Origin: Herpetosiphonaceae bacterium
GTDB lineage: Bacteria; Chloroflexota; Chloroflexia; Chloroflexales; Herpetosiphonaceae
DNA: 37,947 nt
Assembly (NCBI GenBank): GCA_013538855.1
Contig: JABXJS010000026.1
Coordinates: 1-37,947 of the forward strand
Direction of reading: 5' to 3'
Positions 246-34,828 of this stretch are shown here, piece by piece; the stretch's first letter is position 1, and each line of letters opens with the position of its first letter. A program made the translations under genes and the position numbers. The notes under the pieces were generated by a model, which worked only from the letters and a program-made list of their open reading frames with translations, was not told the origin of the DNA and searched no databases.

Positions 246-890
246 TGCGTCCTCCTTGTCAAAGGTCCGGTCTTGCTTCCATGACTCTGGTAGGAGGCGA
301 AACATTACAGCGCACGGCTAAAGTCTGGGCCTGGCCGCGCCCTTGCAAGCGACTACATTGTGATTAGCTCAGCATTTTTAATGAGCAATGAACGTCTCTC
401 AGTATAACGTATATTGCCGCTGCTCCTAGCAGTGCACGCCGCAGCACAGGCGCATGATTCTTGAGCAGAAGCGCCTGTGACTCGACGTCACAGCTCAGCG
501 ATCAGAGTCCACGCTGTTGCTAAGCATCCGTTCGCCGTTGGCGCACTCGAGGCTGCGGGTGCTTCAGCACGACGCCAAGCGGGCGGCCAACGCCGCTGCC
601 CGCACACATGCTGGCACAGCCAAAGCGCACCAAGCCGCACAGCTGCGCGACATGGCACCAGCATACGCAGATCTATGCCGTTGCTCGCAGGTGGTCACTC
701 GCGCAGCGCAGGTGCTGGCCCATGCTGGTGGTGCTGCGCCAAGCGCCGATGCGCTCAGGATGCTCCGTCACCACGAGCGAAGAGCAAAGCCAATCATGGC
801 TGGCTGCGGTGTCTAGATGCCACCGCGTGCAAGGACATTCGTCACCCGCAGCGTCGAAAGTGCCAACCATGAGCGCGCGCCTGGCACCAG
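246..890. other. Intergenic region, no supported gene
   Basis: Several frames are open here because of the high GC content, but none has a good ribosome binding site or a recognisable protein. The AT-richer part at about 365-425 is the most likely place for the promoter of the minus-strand gene ending this region; a TATACT-like box is present on the minus strand but without a convincing -35 partner. I see nothing else in it. Confidence 0.5.
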
Positions 891-1248
891 CGCTGGCCCT
901 GCGACACACACGCCGTGGCCCAACCACATACGCTGCCTCCACCATCAGCCCACGCATCCACCGCGCTCGGCGCTGGCCCTGCGACACCCACGCCGTGGCC
1001 CAACCACATACGCTGCCTCCACCATCAGCCCGCGCACGCACAAGAAAAGCGCAGCTCTACCGCGCTCGGCGCTGGCCCTGCGACACACACGCCGTGGCCC
1101 AACCACACACGCTGCCTCCACCATCAGCCCGCGCATCCACCGCGCTCGGCGCTGGCCCTGCGACACCCACGCCGTGGCCCAACCACACACGCTGCCTCCA
1201 CCATCAGCCCGCGCACGCACAAGAAAAGCGCAGATCCACCGCGCTCGG
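891..1248. repeat. Higher-order tandem repeat, 2 x 179 bp (80 + 99 bp subunits)
   Basis: The motif CGCTGGCCCT starts at 891, 971, 1070 and 1150, and its truncated form CGCTGAG starts at 1249, giving spacings of 80, 99, 80 and 99 bp. The 99-bp subunits differ from the 80-bp ones by an insertion of about 19 bp containing CACAAGAAAAGCGCAG. Two 179-bp units are therefore almost identical, with only scattered single-base differences such as CACATACG versus CACACACG. The subunits touch one another with no variable spacers, so this is not a CRISPR array. No gene covers it convincingly. Confidence 0.85.
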
Positions 1249-1253
1249 CGCTG

Positions 1254-2503: not shown

Positions 2504-3472
2504 CTAGGCGGCGCGGCGCACCGAGCGGGTGAGGGCCACGCCGCCGAGCAGCGCGGCCAAGATGGCCTTGTGCATATGCAGGCGATTCTCGGCCTGATCG
2601 AAGATCAAGTTGTTGCTGCCTTCGGCGATCTCGGCGCTAATCTCCTCGCCGCGGTGCATCGGCAGGCAGTGCATCACCTGGGCGCTGGGCGCAGCGGCAG
2701 CGACAAGGGCAGCATTGATCTGGAAGGGAGCCAGCGCGGCGAGGTGCGCGGGGTCCTCCTGCTGGCCCATGCTGGTCCACACATCGGTGTAGAGCACATC
2801 GGCTCCAGCGACGGCGGCGTAGGGATCGTCGGTGATGGTGATGGTGGTGCCAGCGCGCTGGGCGGCCTCTAGCGCTGGCTGAAGCACCGCACGCTCGACA
2901 CCGCAGCTTGCGGGGGTGCCAAGGCGGAAGTTAACGCCGAAGCGCGGCGCGGCCTCCAGCCACGAGTTAGAGATATTGTTGCTATCGCCGACGTAGGCGA
3001 CGGTAAGGCCCTTGAGCGACCCAAAGTGCTCGCGCATGGTCAGCAGATCGGCCAGCGCCTGAACTGGATGCAGCAGATCGGAGAGGCCGTTGATCACCGG
3101 CACCGTGCTGACGGCGGCCAGCTCCTCCAGCGTGCTGTGCTCGAAAACGCGCGCCATAATCCCGTCGCACATGCGGCTGAGCACGCGCGCGGTGTCGGCG
3201 ACAGTCTCGCCGCGGCCTAGCTGCGTATCGCGTGGGCTAAGGTAGACGGCGTGGCCGCCGAGCTGGGTCATGGCGACCTCGAAGCCAACGCGGGTGCGCG
3301 TCGAGGGCTTCTCGAAGATCATCGCCAGCGAGTAGCCATCGAGCACGCGGTGCGGAATGCGGCGCTGCTGGCGCTGCTTCAGCTCGGCGGCGGACTCGAG
3401 CAGATCGTGCAGCTCGGCATCGGACAGATCGAACAGGGACAGCAGATTGCGACCATAGAGCGAGTGGGTCAT
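2504..3472 (-). CDS. argF: Ornithine carbamoyltransferase
   Basis: The enzyme transfers the carbamoyl group of carbamoyl phosphate to ornithine, making citrulline, in the cytoplasm. The 322-residue length is normal for the family. The carbamoyl-phosphate loop FEKPSTRTR is at residues 53-61, the ornithine-side motif DVWTSMG is present in the C-terminal half, and HCLPMHRG, with the active-site cysteine, starts at residue 268. These motifs separate it from aspartate carbamoyltransferase. The ATG at 3472 is preceded by AAGGAG. It is the last gene of the arginine cluster, 54 nt after argH, and probably depends on the argC promoter and attenuator unless the argJ-argH gap holds another promoter. Catabolic ArcB is a formal alternative, but the biosynthetic neighbours argue for ArgF. 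Confidence 0.96.
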   Translation of the reverse strand: MTHSLYGRNLLSLFDLSDAELHDLLESAAELKQRQQRRIPHRVLDGYSLAMIFEKPSTRTRVGFEVAMTQLGGHAVYLSPRDTQLGRGETVADTARVLSRMCDGIMARVFEHSTLEELAAVSTVPVINGLSDLLHPVQALADLLTMREHFGSLKGLTVAYVGDSNNISNSWLEAAPRFGVNFRLGTPASCGVERAVLQPALEAAQRAGTTITITDDPYAAVAGADVLYTDVWTSMGQQEDPAHLAALAPFQINAALVAAAAPSAQVMHCLPMHRGEEISAEIAEGSNNLIFDQAENRLHMHKAILAALLGGVALTRSVRRAA

Positions 3473-3526: not shown

Positions 3527-4888
3527 TCAGCCTGCAACCAGGCGGCGAGCAAGAATCAGTTGGTCGCGCACAGCGTTGGGCGCAGTGCCGCCCGGAACGT
3601 CCCGAGCAGCGGTGGAGGCCATAACATCAAAGATGGCGGCCGGATTGGTCAAGGCTGGGTGCGCCGCCGTGAACTCCTGCGGCGGCAGCTCGCGCAGGGC
3701 CACGCCACGCTGCTCGGCGGCGCGCACAAGGCGGCCAGAGATATGGTGGGCCTCGCGGAAGGGCACGCCGACGCGCACGAGGGCATCGGCGACATCGGTG
3801 GCGAGCATGGCGTCGTCGAGGGCGGCGTGCATGCGCTGGTGATCGAACTCGGCGGTGCGCACGGCTCCGGCCACAACCGCCAGCGTGAGCAGCAGCGTAT
3901 CGACGGCATCGAAGAGCGGCTCCTTGTCCTCCTGCAAGTCCTTGTCGTAGGCCGAGGGCAGGCCCTTGAGCATCGTCAGCACGCTCACAAGGTTGCCGAT
4001 GAGGCGGCCGGACTTGCCGCGGGCCAGCTCGAGCGAGTCGGGGTTTTTCTTCTGCGGCATCAGGCTCGATCCGGTCGAGAAGGCATCGGCGAGGCGCACA
4101 AAGCCCCACTCGCTGCTGCTCCAGATGATCCAGTCCTCGGCGAGGCGGCTGATGTGCACGCCGACAAGCGCGGCGGCGGCCAGCACCTCGACGATGAAAT
4201 CGCGGTCGCTGGTGGCGTCGAGGCTGTTGGTGCTGATGCTGGCGAAGCCTAGCTCCTGGGCCAGCGCCGCACGATCAACGGCGAAGGCGGTGCCGGCCAG
4301 CGCACCAGAGCCAAGCGGCAGCACCGCGACGCGCTGGCGGGCATCGCGCAGGCGCTCGCGATCACGCTGCAGCGGCCAGAAGTGGGCCAGCAGCGCGTGG
4401 GCCAGCAGGATAGGCTGGGCACGCTGGAGGTGCGTGTAGCCTGGCAGCACGGCCAGCTCCGCCGCCTCCGCCTGCGCAACCAGGGCCTGCTGTAGCTCGC
4501 GGAGCGCAGCATCGAGTGCATCAAGTGCGCTAAGCGTCCACAGGCGTGTGTCGGTGGCCACCTGATCGTTGCGCGAGCGGCCGGTGTGTAGCTTGCCCGC
4601 CAGCGCGCCGATCAACTCGCCAAGTCGACGCTCAACGGCGGTGTGAATATCCTCATCGGTTGGTAGCGCCTGGAAGGAGTCGGCGGCGAACTCGGCGCGC
4701 ACCTGCTCTAGCCCGGCGACGAGCTGCTGATGCTCGTCGGCGCTGAGGATGCCAGCGCGCAGCAGGCCGCCAGCCCAGGCGACGGAGCCGCTGATGTCCT
4801 CATTCCACAGGCGCTGATCGATTGGAAGCGAATCGTTGAACAGGCGCATCTTGGCGTCTATTGATCCGCTGAAACGTCCACCCCACAT
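3527..4888 (-). CDS. argH: Argininosuccinate lyase
   Basis: This enzyme splits argininosuccinate into arginine and fumarate, the last step of arginine synthesis. The 453-residue protein belongs to the fumarase/aspartase superfamily: it opens with the typical MWGGRFSG, has HTGRSRNDQVATD at residues 101-113, GYTHLQ (catalytic histidine region) at 150-155, and the superfamily signature GSSLMPQKKNP at 273-283. The ATG at 4888 has a modest GAGG ribosome binding site. Upstream, 453 nt of tandem repeats separate it from argJ, the only large gap in the operon; downstream, argF follows after 54 nt. Confidence 0.96.
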   Translation of the reverse strand: MWGGRFSGSIDAKMRLFNDSLPIDQRLWNEDISGSVAWAGGLLRAGILSADEHQQLVAGLEQVRAEFAADSFQALPTDEDIHTAVERRLGELIGALAGKLHTGRSRNDQVATDTRLWTLSALDALDAALRELQQALVAQAEAAELAVLPGYTHLQRAQPILLAHALLAHFWPLQRDRERLRDARQRVAVLPLGSGALAGTAFAVDRAALAQELGFASISTNSLDATSDRDFIVEVLAAAALVGVHISRLAEDWIIWSSSEWGFVRLADAFSTGSSLMPQKKNPDSLELARGKSGRLIGNLVSVLTMLKGLPSAYDKDLQEDKEPLFDAVDTLLLTLAVVAGAVRTAEFDHQRMHAALDDAMLATDVADALVRVGVPFREAHHISGRLVRAAEQRGVALRELPPQEFTAAHPALTNPAAIFDVMASTAARDVPGGTAPNAVRDQLILARRLVAG

Positions 4889-4934
4889 ACAAACCTCATT
4901 GTGCTATGTGCCCAGGAGGCACGGTGTACTTTGA

Positions 4935-5280
4935 AATCCCTGCCGGGGGCTGCGGGCTGCGCCCACAACCGCTGCGCTGCTGCGCGCCAGCCGGGCTGTG
5001 CCGTCCAGCAATCCCTGCCGGGGGCTGCGGGCTGCGCCCACAACTGCTGCGCTGCCGCGCGCCAGCCGGGCTGTGCCGTCCAGCATAATTCCTGCCGGGG
5101 GCTGCGGGCTGCGCCCACAACCGCTGCGCTGCCGCGCGCCAGCCGGGCTGTGCTGTCCAGCGTAATTCCTACCATGCGGGCTGCGCCATAGTTTGCCCGG
5201 CCTTATGCATTCCGGCGGAAGTGCTGTCCAGCGTAATTCCTGCCGGGAGCTGCGGGCTGCGCCCACAACCGCCGCTTGTT
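4935..5280. repeat. Intra-operon tandem repeat, about 75-77 bp units
   Basis: The unit begins AATCCCTGCCGGGGGCTGCG or AATTCCTGCCGGGGG and contains GGGCTGCGCCCACAA and CCAGCCGGGCTGTG. Units start at 4935, 5010, 5087, 5164 and 5235, so the spacing is 75, 77, 77 and 71 bp. The first three are nearly identical, the fourth is diverged (ACCATGCGGG, then an unrelated ATAGTTTGCCCGG part) and the fifth is truncated. It fills most of the gap between argJ and argH. GGGCGCAGCCCGCAGCCCC tracts could fold in the RNA. No coding sequence is convincing. Confidence 0.85.
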
Positions 5281-5341: not shown

Positions 5342-6529
5342 CTACGTGCGATAGTCGGCGTTGATGCTGACGTACTCCGCCGACAGATCGCAGGTCCAGG
5401 CCTGCCCGACCGCGTCGGCTAGCCCTAAGTCCAGGCGGATCGCAACCTCGGGTCCGGCCATCTGAGCGGCGGCGTCGGCCTCGGCGAAGGCGCAGGGCGT
5501 GCCGCTAGCGACAACCTGGACGGAGCCAAGCCACAGCTTGAGCAGCTGCGGCTCGAAGGGCACGCCGGCGATGCCAGCGGCGGCCAGGATGCGGCCCCAG
5601 TTCGGATCGCCGCCGTGGATAGCGGTCTTGACCAGCGGCGAGCGGGCGATAGCGCGGGCGATGGTGCGGGCGTCGCTGACCGAGTGCGCGCCGGAGACCG
5701 TCACCTCAACGAGCTTGGTCGCGCCCTCGCCATCGGCGGCGATCTGGCGGGCCAGGTCGCGGCTCAAGTCGGTCAGCGCGGTGCAGAACGCATCGTAGCT
5801 CGCGCTGTCGATCGTCACATCGGCAGCGCCGGAGGCCAGCAGCAGCACGGTGTCGTTGGTGCTAGGATCGCCATCGACGGTGACGCAGTTGAAGGTGGCG
5901 GCGGTGGCGTGGTGCAGCGCCGACTGAAGCAGCTCGGGCGCGATCTGGGCGTCGGTGGTGATGATCGCGAGCATGGTGGCCATCATCGGATGGATCATGC
6001 CCGCGCCCTTGGCCACGCCAGCCAGCGTGATCGTGCGGCCGTTGATAGTCAGCGTTGTGCTGGCCGTCTTCGGGCGCGTGTCGGTGGTCATAATTGCCTG
6101 CGCCACGCTGGGCGCGCCAGCGACGGCGAGCGCGGGGGCCAGCGACTGCACGCCAGCGGCGATCTTGGCCGTATCGAGCTGCACGCCGATCACGCCGGTG
6201 GAGAGCACGAGCACTGCGCCAGGATCGCAGCCAAGCGCGGCGGCGGCGCTTTGAGCCATGGTGCTGGCGGCCTGCTCGCCCTGCGGGCCAGTGCAGGCGT
6301 TGGCGCAGCCGGAGTTCGCGATGATCGCGCGCACACCGGCGGCGTTGGCGGCCAGCACAGCCTGATCGTAGAGCACAGGCGCGGCCTTGATCTGATTGGT
6401 GGTGAAGACACCGGCGGCAGTGCACGGGCCATCGGCCACAATCAGCGCCAGATCGGGCTTGCCGCTGGCCTTGAGGCCACAGCGGCCGCCAGCAGCGCGG
6501 AATCCGGGGGCAAACTGAAAATCGCTCAT
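5342..6529 (-). CDS. argJ: Bifunctional ornithine acetyltransferase / N-acetylglutamate synthase
   Basis: ArgJ moves the acetyl group from N-acetylornithine to glutamate, giving ornithine and N-acetylglutamate (the cyclic pathway); many members also use acetyl-CoA. The 395-residue product has the self-cleavage motif KGAGMIHPMMATML at residues 174-187, with Thr185 as the expected nucleophile that becomes the N-terminus of the beta chain. TGVIG (111-115), the SGCANACTG segment around 73-81 and the C-terminal EYVSINADYRT also fit. Its ATG overlaps the stop codon of argG by 4 nt (ATGA), which shows translational coupling. Whether it is mono- or bifunctional cannot be read from the sequence; the separate ArgA-like gene in the same operon leaves both options open. 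Confidence 0.95.
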   Translation of the reverse strand: MSDFQFAPGFRAAGGRCGLKASGKPDLALIVADGPCTAAGVFTTNQIKAAPVLYDQAVLAANAAGVRAIIANSGCANACTGPQGEQAASTMAQSAAAALGCDPGAVLVLSTGVIGVQLDTAKIAAGVQSLAPALAVAGAPSVAQAIMTTDTRPKTASTTLTINGRTITLAGVAKGAGMIHPMMATMLAIITTDAQIAPELLQSALHHATAATFNCVTVDGDPSTNDTVLLLASGAADVTIDSASYDAFCTALTDLSRDLARQIAADGEGATKLVEVTVSGAHSVSDARTIARAIARSPLVKTAIHGGDPNWGRILAAAGIAGVPFEPQLLKLWLGSVQVVASGTPCAFAEADAAAQMAGPEVAIRLDLGLADAVGQAWTCDLSAEYVSINADYRT

Positions 6530-7737
6530 GCCTGCTCGCCTCGCGTCAAAGCCTCGACCTTGTTGGGCAGGCCATAGATTTTGATGAAGCCCTCGGCGTC
6601 GGCCTGGTTATAGACCGCATCGGCGCTGAAGGTCGCCAGGTCGGGCACATACAGGCTGCGCTCGGCCTCGCGGCCAACCAGATGCACGCCGCCCTTGTAG
6701 AGCTTGAGGCGCGCCCAGCCAGTGACATCGCGCTGCGTCTCGCTGACAAAGGCCGACAGTGCGCGGCGCAGCGGCGACCACCACTGGCCGTTGTAGACCA
6801 ACTCGGCGAAGCGCACGGCCACTAGCTCCTTGTAGTGCAGCGTCTCGCGGTCGAGCGTCAGCTCCTCCAGGCCCTGGTGGGCGCGATAGAGCAAGGTGCC
6901 GCCAGGCGTTTCATAGACGCCGTGGCTCTTCATGCCCACGAGGCGATTCTCGACCAGATCGACGCGGCCGGCGCCGTGCTGCGCGCCAAGCGCATTGAGC
7001 TTCTGGAGCAGCGCGACCGGCTCTAGCCGCTCGCCATCGACGCTGACGGGCACGCCCTGCTCAAAGCCGATCTGCACATAGAGCGGCGTATCGGGCGCAT
7101 CCTCGGGCGCAACCGTCCACTGGTACATCGGCTCCTCCGGCTCGTCGGCGGGGTTTTCGAGCATGCCGCCCTCGTGGCTGAGGTGCCAGAGGTTGCCGTC
7201 GCGCGAGTAGATCGAGGCGCGGGTGCTGGTGACGGGCACATTGTGGGCGGCGGCGTAGTCCAGCGCGTCCTCGCGCGAGCGAATGTGCCACTCGCGCCAG
7301 GGGGCGATGATGCGCATGTGCGGAGCCAGCGCCATGTAGGTCAGCTCAAAGCGCACCTGGTCGTTGCCCTTGCCAGTCGCACCGTGGGCCAGCGCGTCTG
7401 CACCCACCTGCAGCGCGGCGCGCACCTGGCCGCGGGCGATCAGCGGGCGGGCGATGCTGGTGCCGAGCAGATAGGTGCGCTCGTAGATTGCGCCGGACTG
7501 GAGCATGGGAAAGAGAAAGTCGCGCACAAACTCGGCGCGCAGGTCCTCGACGATGCAGGCGCTCGCGCCCGAGGCGATGGCCTTCTGCTCCACGCCGCTA
7601 AGATCGTCGGTCTGGCCGAGATTGCAGCAGTAGCAGACGACCTCGCAGCCATAGTTTTCCTTCAGCCAGGGCACAATAACGCTGGTATCCAACCCGCCTG
7701 AGTAGGCCAGGACGACTGTGTTGACGGACTTGGTCAT
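6526..7737 (-). CDS. argG: Argininosuccinate synthase
   Basis: ArgG joins citrulline and aspartate at the cost of ATP to give argininosuccinate. The 403-residue protein carries the N-type ATP pyrophosphatase P-loop AYSGGLDTS at residues 11-19 and the family motifs GKGNDQVRFE (about 120-129) and TSTRASIYSRDGNLWHLSHEGG (about 170-191, partly). The length is normal. The ATG at 7737 follows GAAGGAGC at good spacing. It lies 96 nt after the argA-like gene and overlaps argJ by 4 nt. Confidence 0.96.
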   Translation of the reverse strand: MTKSVNTVVLAYSGGLDTSVIVPWLKENYGCEVVCYCCNLGQTDDLSGVEQKAIASGASACIVEDLRAEFVRDFLFPMLQSGAIYERTYLLGTSIARPLIARGQVRAALQVGADALAHGATGKGNDQVRFELTYMALAPHMRIIAPWREWHIRSREDALDYAAAHNVPVTSTRASIYSRDGNLWHLSHEGGMLENPADEPEEPMYQWTVAPEDAPDTPLYVQIGFEQGVPVSVDGERLEPVALLQKLNALGAQHGAGRVDLVENRLVGMKSHGVYETPGGTLLYRAHQGLEELTLDRETLHYKELVAVRFAELVYNGQWWSPLRRALSAFVSETQRDVTGWARLKLYKGGVHLVGREAERSLYVPDLATFSADAVYNQADAEGFIKIYGLPNKVEALTRGEQA

Positions 7738-7833: not shown

Positions 7834-8337
7834 TTAGTCGCCGTCGTAGACAACGGCGGTCTCGTCGCAGCAGGTGACGAGCGGGCACTTGACGCAATCG
7901 CGCCAAACTTTTTCAGGGAAGCGATCTTTATTGGTGATCGTAAAACCTAGGCGCAAGAAAAATGGCACAGCGCGGGTAAGCGCAAAAATCGTATTAATCT
8001 GCCGCCGCTTGGCCTGCTCAACCAGCGTGCGCACGATCTGTGCGCCGATGCCAGCGGAGCGGTAGCGCTCGTCGACGGCCAGCGAGCGCACCTCAACTAA
8101 GCTTGGATTCATCAGCAGCAGCGAGCCAATGCCGACCACATAGCCAGCATCGAGCGCAACGACCCAGTCGCCAAGCGTGGCACGAATCTCGTCAATGGTG
8201 CGCGGCAGCAGGTGACCGGCGCGCACATTGACGCTGATCAGCTCGAGCATGCCGGTGATATCGTCCGGGCTGGCGGGGCGCACCTCGATGGGCGCGGTGG
8301 CGAGCAGCGTCGAGGCGGCGGTCGAAACAACAGTCAT
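7834..8337 (-). CDS. argA: GNAT-family N-acetyltransferase, probable short-form N-acetylglutamate synthase
   Basis: This 167-residue single-domain GNAT protein has the acetyl-CoA loop RYRSAGIGAQIV at residues 91-102 and the C-terminal part LGFTITNKDRFPEKVW. That ending, followed by a cysteine-rich DCVKCPLVTCCDE (147-159), is typical of the stand-alone short N-acetylglutamate synthases, which lack the amino-acid-kinase domain of classical ArgA. It would make N-acetylglutamate from glutamate and acetyl-CoA to prime the pathway. The ATG at 8337 has a GGAGG site. Position between the nudix gene and argG supports the role. Substrate specificity is inferred from family resemblance and context. Confidence 0.8.
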   Translation of the reverse strand: MTVVSTAASTLLATAPIEVRPASPDDITGMLELISVNVRAGHLLPRTIDEIRATLGDWVVALDAGYVVGIGSLLLMNPSLVEVRSLAVDERYRSAGIGAQIVRTLVEQAKRRQINTIFALTRAVPFFLRLGFTITNKDRFPEKVWRDCVKCPLVTCCDETAVVYDGD

Positions 8338-8400: not shown

Positions 8401-8946
8401 CTACCAGCCGATGGCTGGCGCAGTTTGCAAAGGGTCATCAAAATCGGCAACGAACGACAGAATGCCACGGGGCTGCTGGCCGACGGCCAACAGCGGGGCG
8501 AGCGCCTTCAGCTCCAGCGGCCACAGCGGCAGGGTCGGCACCGTGTCCAGCGGCACCCAGCACGGCAGCGGCGCGGCGGGGCGCTCGCGGCGCAGTGCAG
8601 GAGCGCCGTTAAGACGTGCGTAGAAGAACACTTCTAACCCAAAGCCGTGGCGACCAGCGCCGCCAGGAGGCTGGCAGTAGGTTGGCGCAACCCACTCGCG
8701 CAGGAAGGCCACCGGGCCAGCCGCGCAGTCGAGACCGGTCTCCTCGCGCAGCTCGCGCACGACGCACTCGGCCATGCTCTCGCCTGGCTCCAGCCCGCCG
8801 CCTGGCGGCCGCCACGCTGGCTCAGCATCTGTGCCAGGGATAAGCAGCAGGCAGCCGGCGTGAACAACGATTGCCCGCGTGCGCACATTAGCATAGATGT
8901 TGTGGCTGTAGAAGGGGTCATTTGTGCCTACTTCTGAGATCGGCAT
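8401..8946 (-). CDS. NUDIX hydrolase inside the arginine operon
   Basis: The 181-residue protein has a perfect Nudix box (G-x5-E-x7-RELREETGL) at residues 50-72, which binds the metal for hydrolysis of a nucleoside-diphosphate-linked substrate. The substrate cannot be predicted. The start ATG at 8946 is only 2 nt after the argB stop codon, so the two genes are almost certainly translationally coupled and co-transcribed; argA follows after 63 nt. A role in arginine metabolism is not established; it may be a housekeeping enzyme carried in the operon or may remove a damaged nucleotide or an ADP-linked side product. Confidence 0.9.
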   Translation of the reverse strand: MPISEVGTNDPFYSHNIYANVRTRAIVVHAGCLLLIPGTDAEPAWRPPGGGLEPGESMAECVVRELREETGLDCAAGPVAFLREWVAPTYCQPPGGAGRHGFGLEVFFYARLNGAPALRRERPAAPLPCWVPLDTVPTLPLWPLELKALAPLLAVGQQPRGILSFVADFDDPLQTAPAIGW

Positions 8947-8948
8947 CG

Positions 8949-9713
8949 CTAGCCCTCACTGCTTGCTGTGACAATTGCCGTGCCACCGTTCAGATCGCCG
9001 ATGTTGGTGATGCGCACCGCCGCGACGCCCTGCTCCAGCGCCGCCAGCGCGGCGGCCACCTTGGGCAGCATGCCACCGCTGATGGTTGCGTCGTCGATTA
9101 AGCGCTGCACCGCTGCGCTGCTCAGGCGCTGCGCTGGCTTGCCAGCGACGAGCACGCCTGGAACGTTGGAGACAAACACGGCCTCGTCGGCCTCCAGGGC
9201 GGCGGCGACCGCGCCGGCGAACACATCGGCGTTGACGTTGTAGGTCTGGCCGCTGCCATCGCCGCAGATGGGAGCCAGCACCGGCACGCAGCCAGCCGCC
9301 AGCAGCTCCAGCAGCAGCAGCGAGCGCACGTGCGTCGGCTCGCCAACAAAGCCCAGGTCGCCAGCCGGATGCTGGGCCGGGCGCACATGGACGAGGCCGC
9401 GATCAACGCCAGACATGCCCAGCGCGTCGATGCCTGCGGCGTTGAGCGCCGCCACCACGCGCGTGTTGACGCCGCCGCGAAGCACCAGCGTCGCCGCGTG
9501 CAGCGCGGTCGCATCGGTGACGCGCAGCCCGGCCACCCAGCGCGGCTCGCCGCCAAGGGCCACCTGCAGCTGGCCGATCTCCTTGCCGCCGCCGTGGACA
9601 ATCACCGGCGGCTGGCCCGCCGCCACCAGCGCGCTCACCGCCTGCACCATCTGCGCCAGCCAGCCCGGATCGTCGATATCGTTGCCGCCAAATTTGAGCA
9701 CCCGTAGCGTCAT
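8949..9713 (-). CDS. argB: Acetylglutamate kinase
   Basis: ArgB phosphorylates N-acetylglutamate with ATP, giving N-acetylglutamyl 5-phosphate. The 254-residue protein is an amino-acid-kinase fold: LKFGGN near the N-terminus, the glycine-rich VIVHGGGKEI at residues 37-46, YNVNADVFAG in the middle and a C-terminal SGGMLPKV. It lacks the N-terminal helix extension seen in arginine-inhibited hexameric NAGKs, so it may be the shorter, arginine-insensitive type; that is inference. The first strand reads LKFGGN where most NAGKs have IKYGG; this also resembles the LysW-dependent LysZ group, but the arginine context favours ArgB. AAGGAG precedes the ATG at 9713. Confidence 0.9.
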   Translation of the reverse strand: MTLRVLKFGGNDIDDPGWLAQMVQAVSALVAAGQPPVIVHGGGKEIGQLQVALGGEPRWVAGLRVTDATALHAATLVLRGGVNTRVVAALNAAGIDALGMSGVDRGLVHVRPAQHPAGDLGFVGEPTHVRSLLLLELLAAGCVPVLAPICGDGSGQTYNVNADVFAGAVAAALEADEAVFVSNVPGVLVAGKPAQRLSSAAVQRLIDDATISGGMLPKVAAALAALEQGVAAVRITNIGDLNGGTAIVTASSEG

Positions 9714-9786: not shown

Positions 9787-10797
9787 CTACTGCAGGCCGA
9801 GCGTCTCGGGCAGGCCGTACATCACGTTCATGTTTTGGATGGCCTGACCCGCCGCGCCCTTGACCAGATTGTCAATCGCTGCGGTGACGATCAGCAGGCC
9901 GGGCTGGGCCATGGTCAGACCGATCGCGCACTGGTTTGTATAGGTCACGTGCGCCAGCGTCGGCAGCTGGCCGGGCGGCAGCACGCGCACGAACGGCTCC
10001 GCCGCATAACGCTCGCCATAGGCGCGCTGGACATCCGCCAGCGCTAGCTCCTGGCGCACCTGCACATACATCGTGCTGAGGATGCCGCGCTGGACCGGCA
10101 GCAGATGCGGCGCGAAGATCACCGTGAGCGGGCGTGCGGCCAGCTTGCCCAGCTCCTGCTCCATCTCGCCAACGTGGCGATGGGTGTGGCCGATGTTGTA
10201 GGGGCTAAAGTTTTCGTTGGCCTCGACAAAGTGCAGATTCTGCTTGAGGCTGCGGCCAGCGCCGGACACGCCCGAGGCGGCGTTGACGATGATCGGGGCC
10301 GTATCGAGGTGCGCCTGCATCGCGATCAGCGGCGCGAGGCCCAGCAGCACGCTGGTGGGATAGCAGCCGGGGTTTGCGATCAGCTGGGCATCGACGAGCG
10401 CGGCGCGGTTCAGCTCCGGCAGGCCGTAGGGCGCGCTCAGCAGGGCCGGGTCAGGATGCGCGGCCCCGTACCACTGCTGATAGCTGGCGGCGCTATCGAG
10501 GCGCAGATCGGCGGACAAATCAATCACCCGCACGCCGTGGCTCTGGGCCAGCAGGGCAGTGCGGGCGGCGACGCCGTGGGGCAGCGCGGTGAAGACCACA
10601 TCGACCGCGCCCCAGTCCGCGTCCTCCAGCGCCAGCAGCGGCAGGTCGAGCGGCCCAGGCACGACAGCGGCCAAGCTGGAGCCAGCGTTGGACTCGGAGA
10701 CAGCCCAGGCGACGGTGGCCTGCGGATGGCGCTGAAGCCAGCGCGCCAGCTCGTACCCGGCATAGCCAGTGATCCCAAAAATTCCAACCTGCAGCAT
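9787..10797 (-). CDS. argC: N-acetyl-gamma-glutamyl-phosphate reductase
   Basis: ArgC reduces N-acetylglutamyl phosphate to the semialdehyde using NADPH. The 336-residue protein starts with the dinucleotide-binding loop GITGYAG (residues 8-14) and has the catalytic cysteine in NPGCYPTS (Cys145). SGVSGAG and the HTHRHVGEMEQEL stretch are also typical of the family. The ATG at 10797 is preceded by GGAGGT. It is the first enzyme gene of the operon and begins only 20 nt after an intrinsic terminator, which points to read-through control by the leader described at 10817-11021. Confidence 0.96.
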   Translation of the reverse strand: MLQVGIFGITGYAGYELARWLQRHPQATVAWAVSESNAGSSLAAVVPGPLDLPLLALEDADWGAVDVVFTALPHGVAARTALLAQSHGVRVIDLSADLRLDSAASYQQWYGAAHPDPALLSAPYGLPELNRAALVDAQLIANPGCYPTSVLLGLAPLIAMQAHLDTAPIIVNAASGVSGAGRSLKQNLHFVEANENFSPYNIGHTHRHVGEMEQELGKLAARPLTVIFAPHLLPVQRGILSTMYVQVRQELALADVQRAYGERYAAEPFVRVLPPGQLPTLAHVTYTNQCAIGLTMAQPGLLIVTAAIDNLVKGAAGQAIQNMNVMYGLPETLGLQ

Positions 10798-10816: not shown

Positions 10817-10857
10817 AAAAAAGCCCCCCTGAAACCGCAGAACGGTTCAGGGGGGCT
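10817..10857 (-). terminator. Intrinsic terminator (attenuator) in front of argC
   Basis: On the minus strand the arms AGCCCCCCTGAACCG and CGGTTTCAGGGGGGCT form a stem of about 15 bp with one bulged base and a 5-nt loop (TTCTG), followed at once by a run of T. It stands between the leader peptide stop (10876) and argC, so it would stop transcription before argC unless an alternative fold prevents it. Confidence 0.93.
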
Positions 10858-10875: not shown

Positions 10876-10983
10876 TTAGCTGGATCGCCGGCAGACCACG
10901 AAAGCCCTCTGAACCACGTGGGTACGAGGACGACGGAGGCGCAGCGCCGGTTTAAAAAGATTGTCCAGCTGTTGTAGTTTCAT
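10876..10983 (-). CDS. Arginine-rich leader peptide of the arg operon
   Basis: A 35-codon frame (ATG at 10983, TAA at 10878-10876), not an ordinary gene. It contains seven arginine codons at positions 15, 17, 18, 20, 26, 32 and 33, including the cluster RLRRPR at 15-20 and CRRSS at the end. The use of CGC, CGT, CGT, CGT, AGG, CGG and CGA covers several arginine tRNAs. There is no SD sequence, but the promoter just upstream would start the mRNA at or within a few bases of the ATG. I infer that scarcity of charged arginine tRNA stalls the ribosome in the 15-20 cluster, uncovers the pairing segment at 10915-10903 and prevents the terminator from forming; when arginine is plentiful the ribosome reaches the stop and termination follows. 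Confidence 0.85.
   Translation of the reverse strand: MKLQQLDNLFKPALRLRRPRTHVVQRAFVVCRRSS
10903..10915 (-). promoter_or_regulatory. Antiterminator segment within the leader peptide frame
   Basis: The RNA segment GGTTCAGAGGGCT (codons 23-27 of the leader) imitates the 3' arm of the terminator. It can pair with the terminator 5' arm AGCCCCCCTGAACC: seven base pairs (GGTTCAG/CTGAACC), a small internal loop (A against CC) and five more (GGGCT/AGCCC). Forming this duplex is incompatible with the terminator hairpin. It lies just downstream of the arginine codon cluster, as required for control by a stalled ribosome. Confidence 0.8.
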
Positions 10984-10992
10984 AGCAGCGTG

Positions 10993-11021
10993 ATAATAGA
11001 GCCAGATAAGCACTTTGTCAA
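10993..11021 (-). promoter_or_regulatory. Sigma-70-type promoter of the arginine operon
   Basis: Reading the minus strand, TTGACA (11021-11016, perfect -35), a 17-bp spacer and TATTAT (10998-10993, 5 of 6 -10) are followed after 9 nt by the ATG of the leader peptide. A start about 7 nt beyond the -10 gives a 5' leader of only 0-4 nt. Confidence 0.88.
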
Positions 11022-11080: not shown

Positions 11081-11965
11081 CTATGGTGTCAGCAGAATAT
11101 TCGTGTAGCGCCCAGCATAGCCAATCTGCTCAAACAGCTTGGGCAGCTCGGCAACCGGGTGTGCGGTTAGCGCTTGATGCTCAAATGTCCAGTACTGTTT
11201 CCAGTAGCGGGCCACCAAATCACAGAACGGCGCTGTGCCCATGCCGGAGCGCTCAATGCCATACGGCCACAGCTCTGTCATCAGCGGAATAGCGCGTTTG
11301 AACAGTGCGGCCCCACCTTTAATCGCGTACCCCTCCCAACCTTGAATATCCATCCAGGCCAGCTGAATCTTGTTTACAAGATCCGTGGGTAAGTCGGCAA
11401 GAAGCACATCGAGGCTCTGCGCGGGAACAGGGATTGTTTGGCGCGATGACTCGTTGAAGGCATTAGCGGCTGTTGGCTGATCGGCCTGGCTGCGCACCCG
11501 ATGGTCGCCGAGGTTGCCTTCGCTGATTTCAAAATTTACGGTGCCTGGCTGATCCGAGATCGCAACAGGTAGGCAGGTTATTTGATCAGCCATGCCGTTT
11601 TGGCGCACATTCTGCTGCAGCAGATGAAAGTTTGCTGGCTCTGGCTCCAGCGCGATGGCGCGCTTAAAAATGTTGTGGTGCAGCATGCCGATGGAAATGA
11701 CACCAATGTTTGATCCAATATCTAGCAGCGTGCCGTCGGGGGTGAGCGCAAATCCATGCTGACGCAAGAAGTTGGTGGTGCGCACAATCAAGTCTAGCTC
11801 AAACTCTCGATAGCAGTAAAGCTCGCGGCTCAGGGAGCTATCCCGACAGTAAATGGTAAAGCGACCCTGCTTTGTATTCACCGTCGTTGTAGACCGAATA
11901 TCGCGATTGATCCGCCAGCGGATTTCACGTATGCGGCGGTTGATACTGTTTAGCATTTGCAACAC
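11081..11965 (-). CDS. FkbM-family methyltransferase
   Basis: This is a SAM-dependent class I methyltransferase of the FkbM type: LDIGSNIGVISIG (about residues 82-94) is the SAM-binding loop, IALEPEPANFHLLQQN the acidic second strand, and DIQGWEGYAIKGG the FkbM-typical later motif. The 294-residue length and the short basic N-terminus (SINRRIREIRWRI) fit the family. The acceptor is unknown; relatives methylate hydroxyls of sugars, polyketides or other secondary products. An AAGGAG lies just before a cluster of possible starts: GTG at 11965 (spacing very short), TTG at 11962 and ATG at 11956; the last two fit the spacing better. No glycan or polyketide genes are nearby. It is read in the same direction as the arg operon but ends before the arg promoter. 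Confidence 0.88.
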   Translation of the reverse strand: MLQMLNSINRRIREIRWRINRDIRSTTTVNTKQGRFTIYCRDSSLSRELYCYREFELDLIVRTTNFLRQHGFALTPDGTLLDIGSNIGVISIGMLHHNIFKRAIALEPEPANFHLLQQNVRQNGMADQITCLPVAISDQPGTVNFEISEGNLGDHRVRSQADQPTAANAFNESSRQTIPVPAQSLDVLLADLPTDLVNKIQLAWMDIQGWEGYAIKGGAALFKRAIPLMTELWPYGIERSGMGTAPFCDLVARYWKQYWTFEHQALTAHPVAELPKLFEQIGYAGRYTNILLTP

Positions 11966-34344: not shown

Positions 34345-34521
34345 CGCAGCGCCACAGCGCTCTACGCGCCTAGCAGACAGTCGAGCAACGCGCTGCCGCC
34401 AACCCGCTGTCCGATCAACATATCCAGCGCTAGCTCGCCCGCCGTCAGGTGCGCAGGCACGAGATTGCGCGCGAACGGCCACTCCGACCAAGCGTGTTCA
34501 CATTGGCCGGATCGACAAAAG
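34345..34521. repeat. 177-bp tandem duplication, downstream copy
   Basis: Together with 34522-34698 this is a direct tandem repeat with a period of 177 bp, seen for example in the two copies of CTACGCGCCTAGCAGAC (34362 and 34539). The copies differ at scattered positions. It duplicates the 3' end of the decayed gene at 34539-34828. Confidence 0.9.
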
Positions 34522-34698
34522 AGGAGCGCCACAGCGTTCTACGCGCCTAGCAGACGGTCGAGAACCTCGCTGCCGCCAACCCGCTGCCCGGTCAAAATGT
34601 CCAGCGCTAGCTCGCCCTCCGTCAGGTGCGCAAGCACGAGATTGCGCTCGAACGGCCACTCCGACCAAGTGTGTTCACATTGGCCGGATCGACAAAAG
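34522..34698. repeat. 177-bp tandem duplication, upstream copy
   Basis: The copy that is joined to the 5' part of the decayed gene. It starts near GAGCGCCACAGCG and ends CGGATCGACAAAAGA. Confidence 0.9.
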
Positions 34699-34828
34699 AG
34701 TAGTAGGCATCAGGATGCTCTGCCTGTGATTTGGCGTAGCGTGTGCAGCGGGCCAGCGCCTGCGCCAGCCAAGGCGCATCCGGCAGCTCAGCCTGCGATG
34801 GTGGATCATACGGCTGCCAATCACGCAT
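34539..34828 (-). pseudogene. Frameshifted small gene with partly duplicated 3' end
   Basis: The minus-strand ATG at 34828 opens a frame reading MRDWQPYDPPSQAELPDA... up to YYSFVDPANVNT at about codon 53. The sense then moves into another frame that reads WSEWPFERNLVLAHLT and DILTGQRVGGSEVLDRLLGA and stops at 34541-34539; one missing base explains the shift. The tandem copy (34345-34521) repeats this second part with a stop at the matching place (34364-34362) and with many amino-acid changes, as expected for a drifting non-coding copy. The product family is not recognised. The expected full protein would have been about 97 residues. I see no SD at the start. Confidence 0.65.

Follow-up and report, generated by a model that had tools for sequence, protein, structure and literature searches.

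The arginine biosynthetic operon in this Herpetosiphonaceae genome is very likely controlled by a ribosome-mediated transcription attenuator that is specific for arginine, a conclusion that we draw without expression, start-site, or ribosome profiling data. Sequence analysis establishes, at the level of prediction, a promoter, a short arginine-rich open reading frame (ORF), an intrinsic terminator, an alternative pairing, covariation, conservation, and the absence of ArgR. The element is real, with strong comparative support, and it represents a new specificity of a known form of control and no new principle.

Organization of the leader and the arginine operon

A sequence-only reading of this DNA had described a 35-codon frame with seven Arg codons, including the stretch RLRRPR, between a near-consensus promoter and an intrinsic terminator directly before argC. 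Both the coordinates and the description of the frame are correct, and the two flanking signals were recovered in our analysis. On the minus strand of the window (the whole stretch of 37,947 nucleotides that was analyzed), the order is promoter, Arg-rich ORF, terminator, and argC, with the following parts:

11016 to 11021, minus strand: -35 hexamer TTGACA, kept in all 28 of the relatives' loci
10993 to 10998, minus strand: -10 hexamer TATTAT, separated from the -35 hexamer by a 17-nt spacer
near 10986, minus strand: transcription start, inferred from the promoter
10876 to 10983, minus strand: leader peptide ORF of 35 codons, its ATG about 3 nt past the predicted transcription start
10924 to 10941, minus strand: control codons RLRRPR in the ORF translation, four Arg in six codons; Arg is kept with synonymous changes in relatives
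10904 to 10931, minus strand: strand 1:2 hairpin (CCUCGU..ACC/GGU..AGAGG) of the centroid fold, for which RNAalifold finds a corresponding helix
10903 to 10915, minus strand: strand 2, GGUUCAGAGGGCU, the putative 5' arm of the antiterminator, pairing with 10844-10857
10822 to 10857, minus strand: intrinsic terminator hairpin of 36 nt (folding, RNAalifold), whose 5' arm is strand 3, the antiterminator partner
10817 to 10822, minus strand: U tract of the terminator, read from the sequence

The promoter, TTGACA(11021)-17-TATTAT(10993), scores 11/12 and is the sole one in 1.1 kb (shuffle mean 0.3). It sits between the leader ORF and an upstream methyltransferase-like gene (11081-11965) on the same strand as the leader. 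The ORF, read from 10983 to 10876, translates to MKLQQLDNLFKPALRLRRPRTHVVQRAFVVCRRSS followed by a stop codon. The terminator, AGCCCCCCUGAACCGUUCUGCGGUUUCAGGGGGGCU-UUUUU, has a folding energy of -30.2 kcal/mol (z -6.7), and a purine-rich GCGGAGG lies between it and the argC start at 10797. Clusters of at least four Arg in six codons are not rare in this GC-rich window, where they occur in 18 of the 256 ATG ORFs of 15-45 aa, and on its own the Arg cluster carries little weight. The element is significant because of the combination of its parts and their conservation, not because of the Arg cluster alone.

Downstream, the gene order is argC-B-nudix-GNAT-G-J-H-F, with names assigned by NCBIfam profiles, and the operon covers most of the arginine pathway:

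9787 to 10797, minus strand: argC, first gene of the operon (TIGR01850, 381 bits)
8949 to 9713, minus strand: argB (TIGR00761)
8401 to 8946, minus strand: Nudix hydrolase-like gene between argB and the argA-like gene (weak NCBIfam matches)
7834 to 8337, minus strand: GNAT acetyltransferase, argA-like (NF005840 at 142.8 bits, slightly under the cut-off; N-acetylglutamate synthase domain matches)
6526 to 7737, minus strand: argG (NCBIfam)
5342 to 6529, minus strand: argJ (NCBIfam)
3527 to 4888, minus strand: argH (NCBIfam)
2504 to 3472, minus strand: argF (NCBIfam)

In the argJ-argH gap inside the operon, a unit of 75-77 nt is repeated in tandem about three times (window 4934-5170). Near-perfect two-copy tandem repeats of 177-179 nt are found at window 890-1253 and 34348-34700.

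Conservation of the leader within the order

Homologues of argC are present in 59 of the 60 genomes of the order. We examined 28 argC loci from the genome's own family (f1, genus g2 left out) and the sister family f3, and every one of them carries the TTGACA promoter, the Arg-rich ORF, the terminator, and the alternative pairing. The arrangement is kept despite differing upstream sequence, whereas an Arg ORF with a terminator appeared in only 2 of 80 reverse-complement controls. Conservation of the Arg-rich frame before argC in relatives, which the sequence-only reading had proposed as a check, is thus borne out.

Across these loci the ATG lies 7-12 nt past the -10 hexamer (mostly 9-10), and the ORF has 24-35 codons, 5-7 of them Arg. 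An ATG 9-10 nt past the -10 hexamer predicts a 5' UTR of only about 3-4 nt in most f1 and f3 loci. The window's leader ORF is therefore predicted to be nearly leaderless, with its transcription start inferred and not mapped. The Arg clusters take the form RLRRPR in f1, LRRxxRRP in most of f3, and RRxxRRRVR with CGA codons in genus g6, and outside the cluster the peptides vary. A bias toward synonymous variation had also been anticipated, and it was found in only two of three groups. Codon changes in the Arg block are synonymous rather than nonsynonymous by 5:0 in f1 (p 0.005) and by 7:2 in f3 (p 0.009), whereas the f3/g6 subgroup gives a nonsignificant 3:6. Since the choice of blocks was guided by the Arg motif, this result is supporting evidence only, and no ribosome data bear on translation of the ORF.

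In each of 31 genomes, an RNA model of the leader had exactly one strong match (E < 1e-18). The matches fall at the known argC loci, and three extra ones (G154, G156, and G157) were checked and also lie before argC. Weak R1 matches in families f2, f4, f7, and f11 were set aside, as none of the six inspected resembles the element. No leader was found at argC in f4 (Chloroflexaceae), f2, or genus g2 of f1, and ArgR is likewise absent from these groups. Given these groups, loss of the leader is tolerated.

Distribution in the phylum and beyond

More distant argC loci were drawn from a broad genome collection. The same arrangement, with terminators, precedes argC in genomes of Anaerolineae and Caldilineaceae (for example L052, MNLVNQTFFRRLRRRQTTGLVICSV; L056, MTLLIAIPVAELRRPRRRPQTDPVWQG; and L062, MKHFPTQLFRRYRRRQTIGLGFSVV), and these putative leaders are more divergent. 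Further genomes of the phylum that carry the leader belong to f35, f48, and f65; in f61 the leader is shorter and has three Arg. In some Anaerolineae leaders the ATG is about 30-40 nt from the -10 hexamer, which seemingly indicates a longer 5' UTR, and the promoter assignment is less certain. Matches from the automated scan in f15, f30, f50, and f18 look chance-like, with only f15 inspected individually. Among 61 argC loci from other phyla that were scanned for an Arg ORF plus terminator, the only hits were an ORF that looks like chance (L111) and, twice, the tail of ribosomal protein S9.

Two other types of region before argC were noted. At L224 (genome G230, f47), a hand reading of the last ~140 nt before argC gave TTGACA-17-TATTCT and, 7 nt on, an Arg-rich ORF, MARKSNLALSFLRREMRGRERVFLGNSVYPWEG. 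This ORF extends as far as argC and contains a GC-rich hairpin and TGTGTTTTT; it could possibly be a divergent version of the Arg leader in a genome that does not belong to the main clade. Separately, Chloroflexus-type loci (L040, L041, L044, L045, and L064, the last from Chloroflexus islandicus, which resembles f4) share a conserved ORF of ~28 aa directly before argC, MFTRILNFLRRLGQIHPAVIAIAPDRTW and variants. In front of it lies GC-rich sequence that is well conserved and contains inverted segments, GGCGCATC...GATGCGCC. An Rfam search of this upstream region gave no match, and the region may be a different putative control element in a family without the Arg leader.

Mutually exclusive folds of the leader RNA

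The antiterminator is absent from the sequence-only reading and was found in the present analysis. Inside the ORF, the segment that directly follows the Arg cluster (10915-10903, GGUUCAGAGGGCU) is complementary to the 5' arm of the terminator, AGCCCCCCUGAACC. When the RNA was folded without the 3' arm of the terminator, the antiterminator formed (-35.1 kcal/mol for the 84-nt segment, z -4.0). With the 3' arm included, the terminator forms instead (-65.2 kcal/mol for the whole leader, z -3.6). The two predicted folds are mutually exclusive.

We measured the pairing between strands 2 and 3 with a permutation test in place of counting pairs in the 2:3 helix, because loop indels shift the MAFFT alignment out of register. 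For 31 representatives, cognate duplexes average -15.7 kcal/mol, compared with -12.5 kcal/mol (sd 0.47) for permuted partners, and none of 10,000 permutations matches the cognate pairing. Control duplexes using the first 45 nt of the ORF reach -5.9 kcal/mol. This outcome is not a formal probability, since the sequences are related. The putative antiterminator arm covaries with the terminator.

In the centroid fold, the 1:2 hairpin (10931-10904) overlaps the last Arg codons and competes with the antiterminator. It is a consensus helix with compensatory changes according to RNAalifold, yet it is weak in single sequences (mean z -0.7). From the f1/f3 alignment alone, RNAalifold recovers both the terminator and the 1:2 helix, and 7 of the 14 pairs show changes on both sides. 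Many Anaerolineae and Caldilineaceae leaders carry a strand 1 that is a plain copy of strand 3 (CCAGACC), and their predicted layout is the textbook 1:2/2:3/3:4 arrangement.

Absence of ArgR and of known RNA regulators

The sequence-only reading saw no ArgR gene and no T-box at the locus; the former statement extends to the whole genome and to the class, and the latter is confirmed. The ArgR N-domain (PF01316) was not found in the whole genome, and the C-domain (PF02863) was found in none of 150 genomes of the class. The latter search works, because 66 of 301 genomes of the phylum match PF02863. None of the leader-bearing genomes recognized here is among these 66 ArgR carriers, one of which gave a chance-like leader match with a GTG start. 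We considered whether leader and ArgR strictly exclude each other throughout the phylum; this is not shown, since many families lack both. In f2, f4, and many further Chloroflexota families, we found neither ArgR nor an Arg leader at argC.

The T-box family (RF00230) is matched neither at the locus nor on its contig. Elsewhere in the genome there are eight T-box matches (C252, C155, C60, C279, C188, C25, C133, and C68) of 63-95 bits, one above the gathering score, so tRNA-sensing RNAs of another type are in use in this genome, probably for other genes. Searches of the locus against Rfam at gathering and permissive thresholds returned nothing credible, the best permissive match being PyrR, far under its cut-off. 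A promoter-plus-Arg pattern has four matches in the genome, including this leader (control 1). A crude filter for promoter, ORF, and terminator detected no leader-peptide attenuator at trpE, ilvB, or leuA in this genome.

Proposed mechanism

The sequence-only reading had compared the layout to trp/his/leu-type attenuators, with arginine as the sensed amino acid, and this interpretation is supported by the conserved frame and the covarying antiterminator. In our proposal, transcription would start about 3 nt before the ATG, and a ribosome would load directly at the 5' end of the RNA and trail RNA polymerase. With ample arginyl-tRNA, the ribosome would cross the Arg cluster and strand 2 and reach the stop codon. 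With strand 2 then masked or base-paired to strand 1, the terminator would form and transcription would stop before argC. If arginyl-tRNA is short, the ribosome would stall at the Arg codons and disrupt strand 1, and the freed strand 2 could pair with the 5' arm of the terminator, so that polymerase would read into argC.

The median distance from the last clustered Arg codon to the start of strand 2 is 12 nt, which is about the stretch that would be left uncovered by a stalled ribosome. The ORF in f3 has its stop codon where strand 2 ends, so a ribosome that does not stall would mask this strand. In f1 the ORF extends beyond strand 2, so masking would be transient and termination would rely on the 1:2 hairpin or on timing. 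We infer where transcription starts, that the ORF is translated, that ribosomes stall when arginyl-tRNA is low, that read-through then changes, and that the operon responds to arginine.

Alternative explanations

The leader peptide could instead be a nascent-chain sensor in the manner of the fungal arginine attenuator peptide, TnaC, or the RLR/R-x-R macrolide arrest motif, with ribosome-bound arginine or a drug causing the stall. The window peptide does contain R-L-R, and drug-responsive leader peptides have been reported to carry this motif (PMC8632094). However, only the Arg cluster is conserved and there is no fixed peptide (RLRRPR, RRFRRP, RRADRRRVR, RRLRRRQT, and others), and the target is always argC. 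Moreover, a stall would free the antiterminator and activate the operon, the opposite of the effect expected if high arginine caused the stall. Activation by stalling thus fits starvation sensing via arginyl-tRNA and speaks against a sensor of high arginine. We regard a nascent-chain sensor as very unlikely.

Strong RNA structure and covariation would be equally expected if the leader were a structured RNA or a protein-binding attenuator whose reading frame is incidental. Against that idea, the position of the ATG, the 24-35-codon frame, and Arg identity are retained with synonymous third-base changes, and no Rfam family reaches its gathering score; we give it slightly less credence still. The least probable explanation in our judgment is that the terminator is constitutive or belongs to the upstream gene, with the Arg-rich ORF a by-product of high GC content. 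The frequency of Arg clusters in short ORFs of the window (18/256) and the same-strand methyltransferase-like gene upstream are compatible with it. It is already contradicted by an arrangement that persists in 28/28 loci with differing upstream sequence, and against it also stand a promoter located between that gene and the ORF and the covarying pairing between ORF and terminator.

Relation to known systems

The putative arginine attenuator resembles the trp, his, leu, ilv, thr, phe, and cysS attenuators in having a short ORF with a run of pathway-product codons before a biosynthetic operon, and in its overlapping predicted 2:3 (antiterminator) and 3:4 (terminator) pairings; the corresponding 1:2 pairing is a consensus helix that is weak in single sequences. 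It differs from them in its arginine specificity, its occurrence in Chloroflexota, and the lack of an Rfam match at the gathering score. Its ORF also starts only ~0-5 nt past the predicted transcription start, and therefore there is no room for a Shine-Dalgarno sequence. The poly-cysteine short ORFs before mycobacterial cys operons are leaderless. These candidates (PMC1262725) are likewise rich in the sensed amino acid, but they lack a conserved intrinsic terminator, whereas the leader described here has a predicted terminator and antiterminator. The same survey of Actinobacteria reported no conserved RNA structure at arginine operons (PMC1262725).

Arginine limitation is sensed through Arg codons of another bacterial leader peptide, rbfL of Staphylococcus aureus (PMC13009471). 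That system depends on two rare Arg codons, acts on translation and not transcription, and lowers a biofilm regulator without turning on arginine synthesis (PMC13009471). The Salmonella speF leader region is also under arginine-dependent control, in a study in which arginine codons feature prominently, but it governs ornithine decarboxylase (putrescine synthesis) and not an arginine biosynthetic operon (PMC6386406). The usual bacterial controls of the same genes are ArgR/AhrC repression and arginine T-boxes; here ArgR is absent and the locus has no T-box. In fungi, the arginine attenuator peptide is an upstream peptide that also controls arginine synthesis. It is a eukaryotic, translational system that arrests at high arginine via the nascent chain.

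The open-licence literature yielded no case of a bacterial arginine biosynthetic operon under an arginine leader-peptide attenuator, and none in Chloroflexota. Priority is uncertain, with the subscription literature outside our scope. According to a 2010 survey, leader-peptide systems had been known from Proteobacteria and Actinobacteria alone, and the survey itself extended them to Firmicutes (PMC2965389). We lean toward the view, with reservations, that this is the first ribosome-mediated transcription attenuator with specificity for arginine to be described for an arginine biosynthetic operon, that it was inherited through Chloroflexia and Anaerolineae, and that it does the job of ArgR from a near-leaderless ORF. 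The best reading is that the leader acts in place of ArgR control. For Chloroflexota without ArgR, it offers a specific way in which arginine synthesis may be regulated. It also brings arginine into the set of amino acids that ribosome-mediated attenuation senses, and a further phylum into the range of such attenuators.
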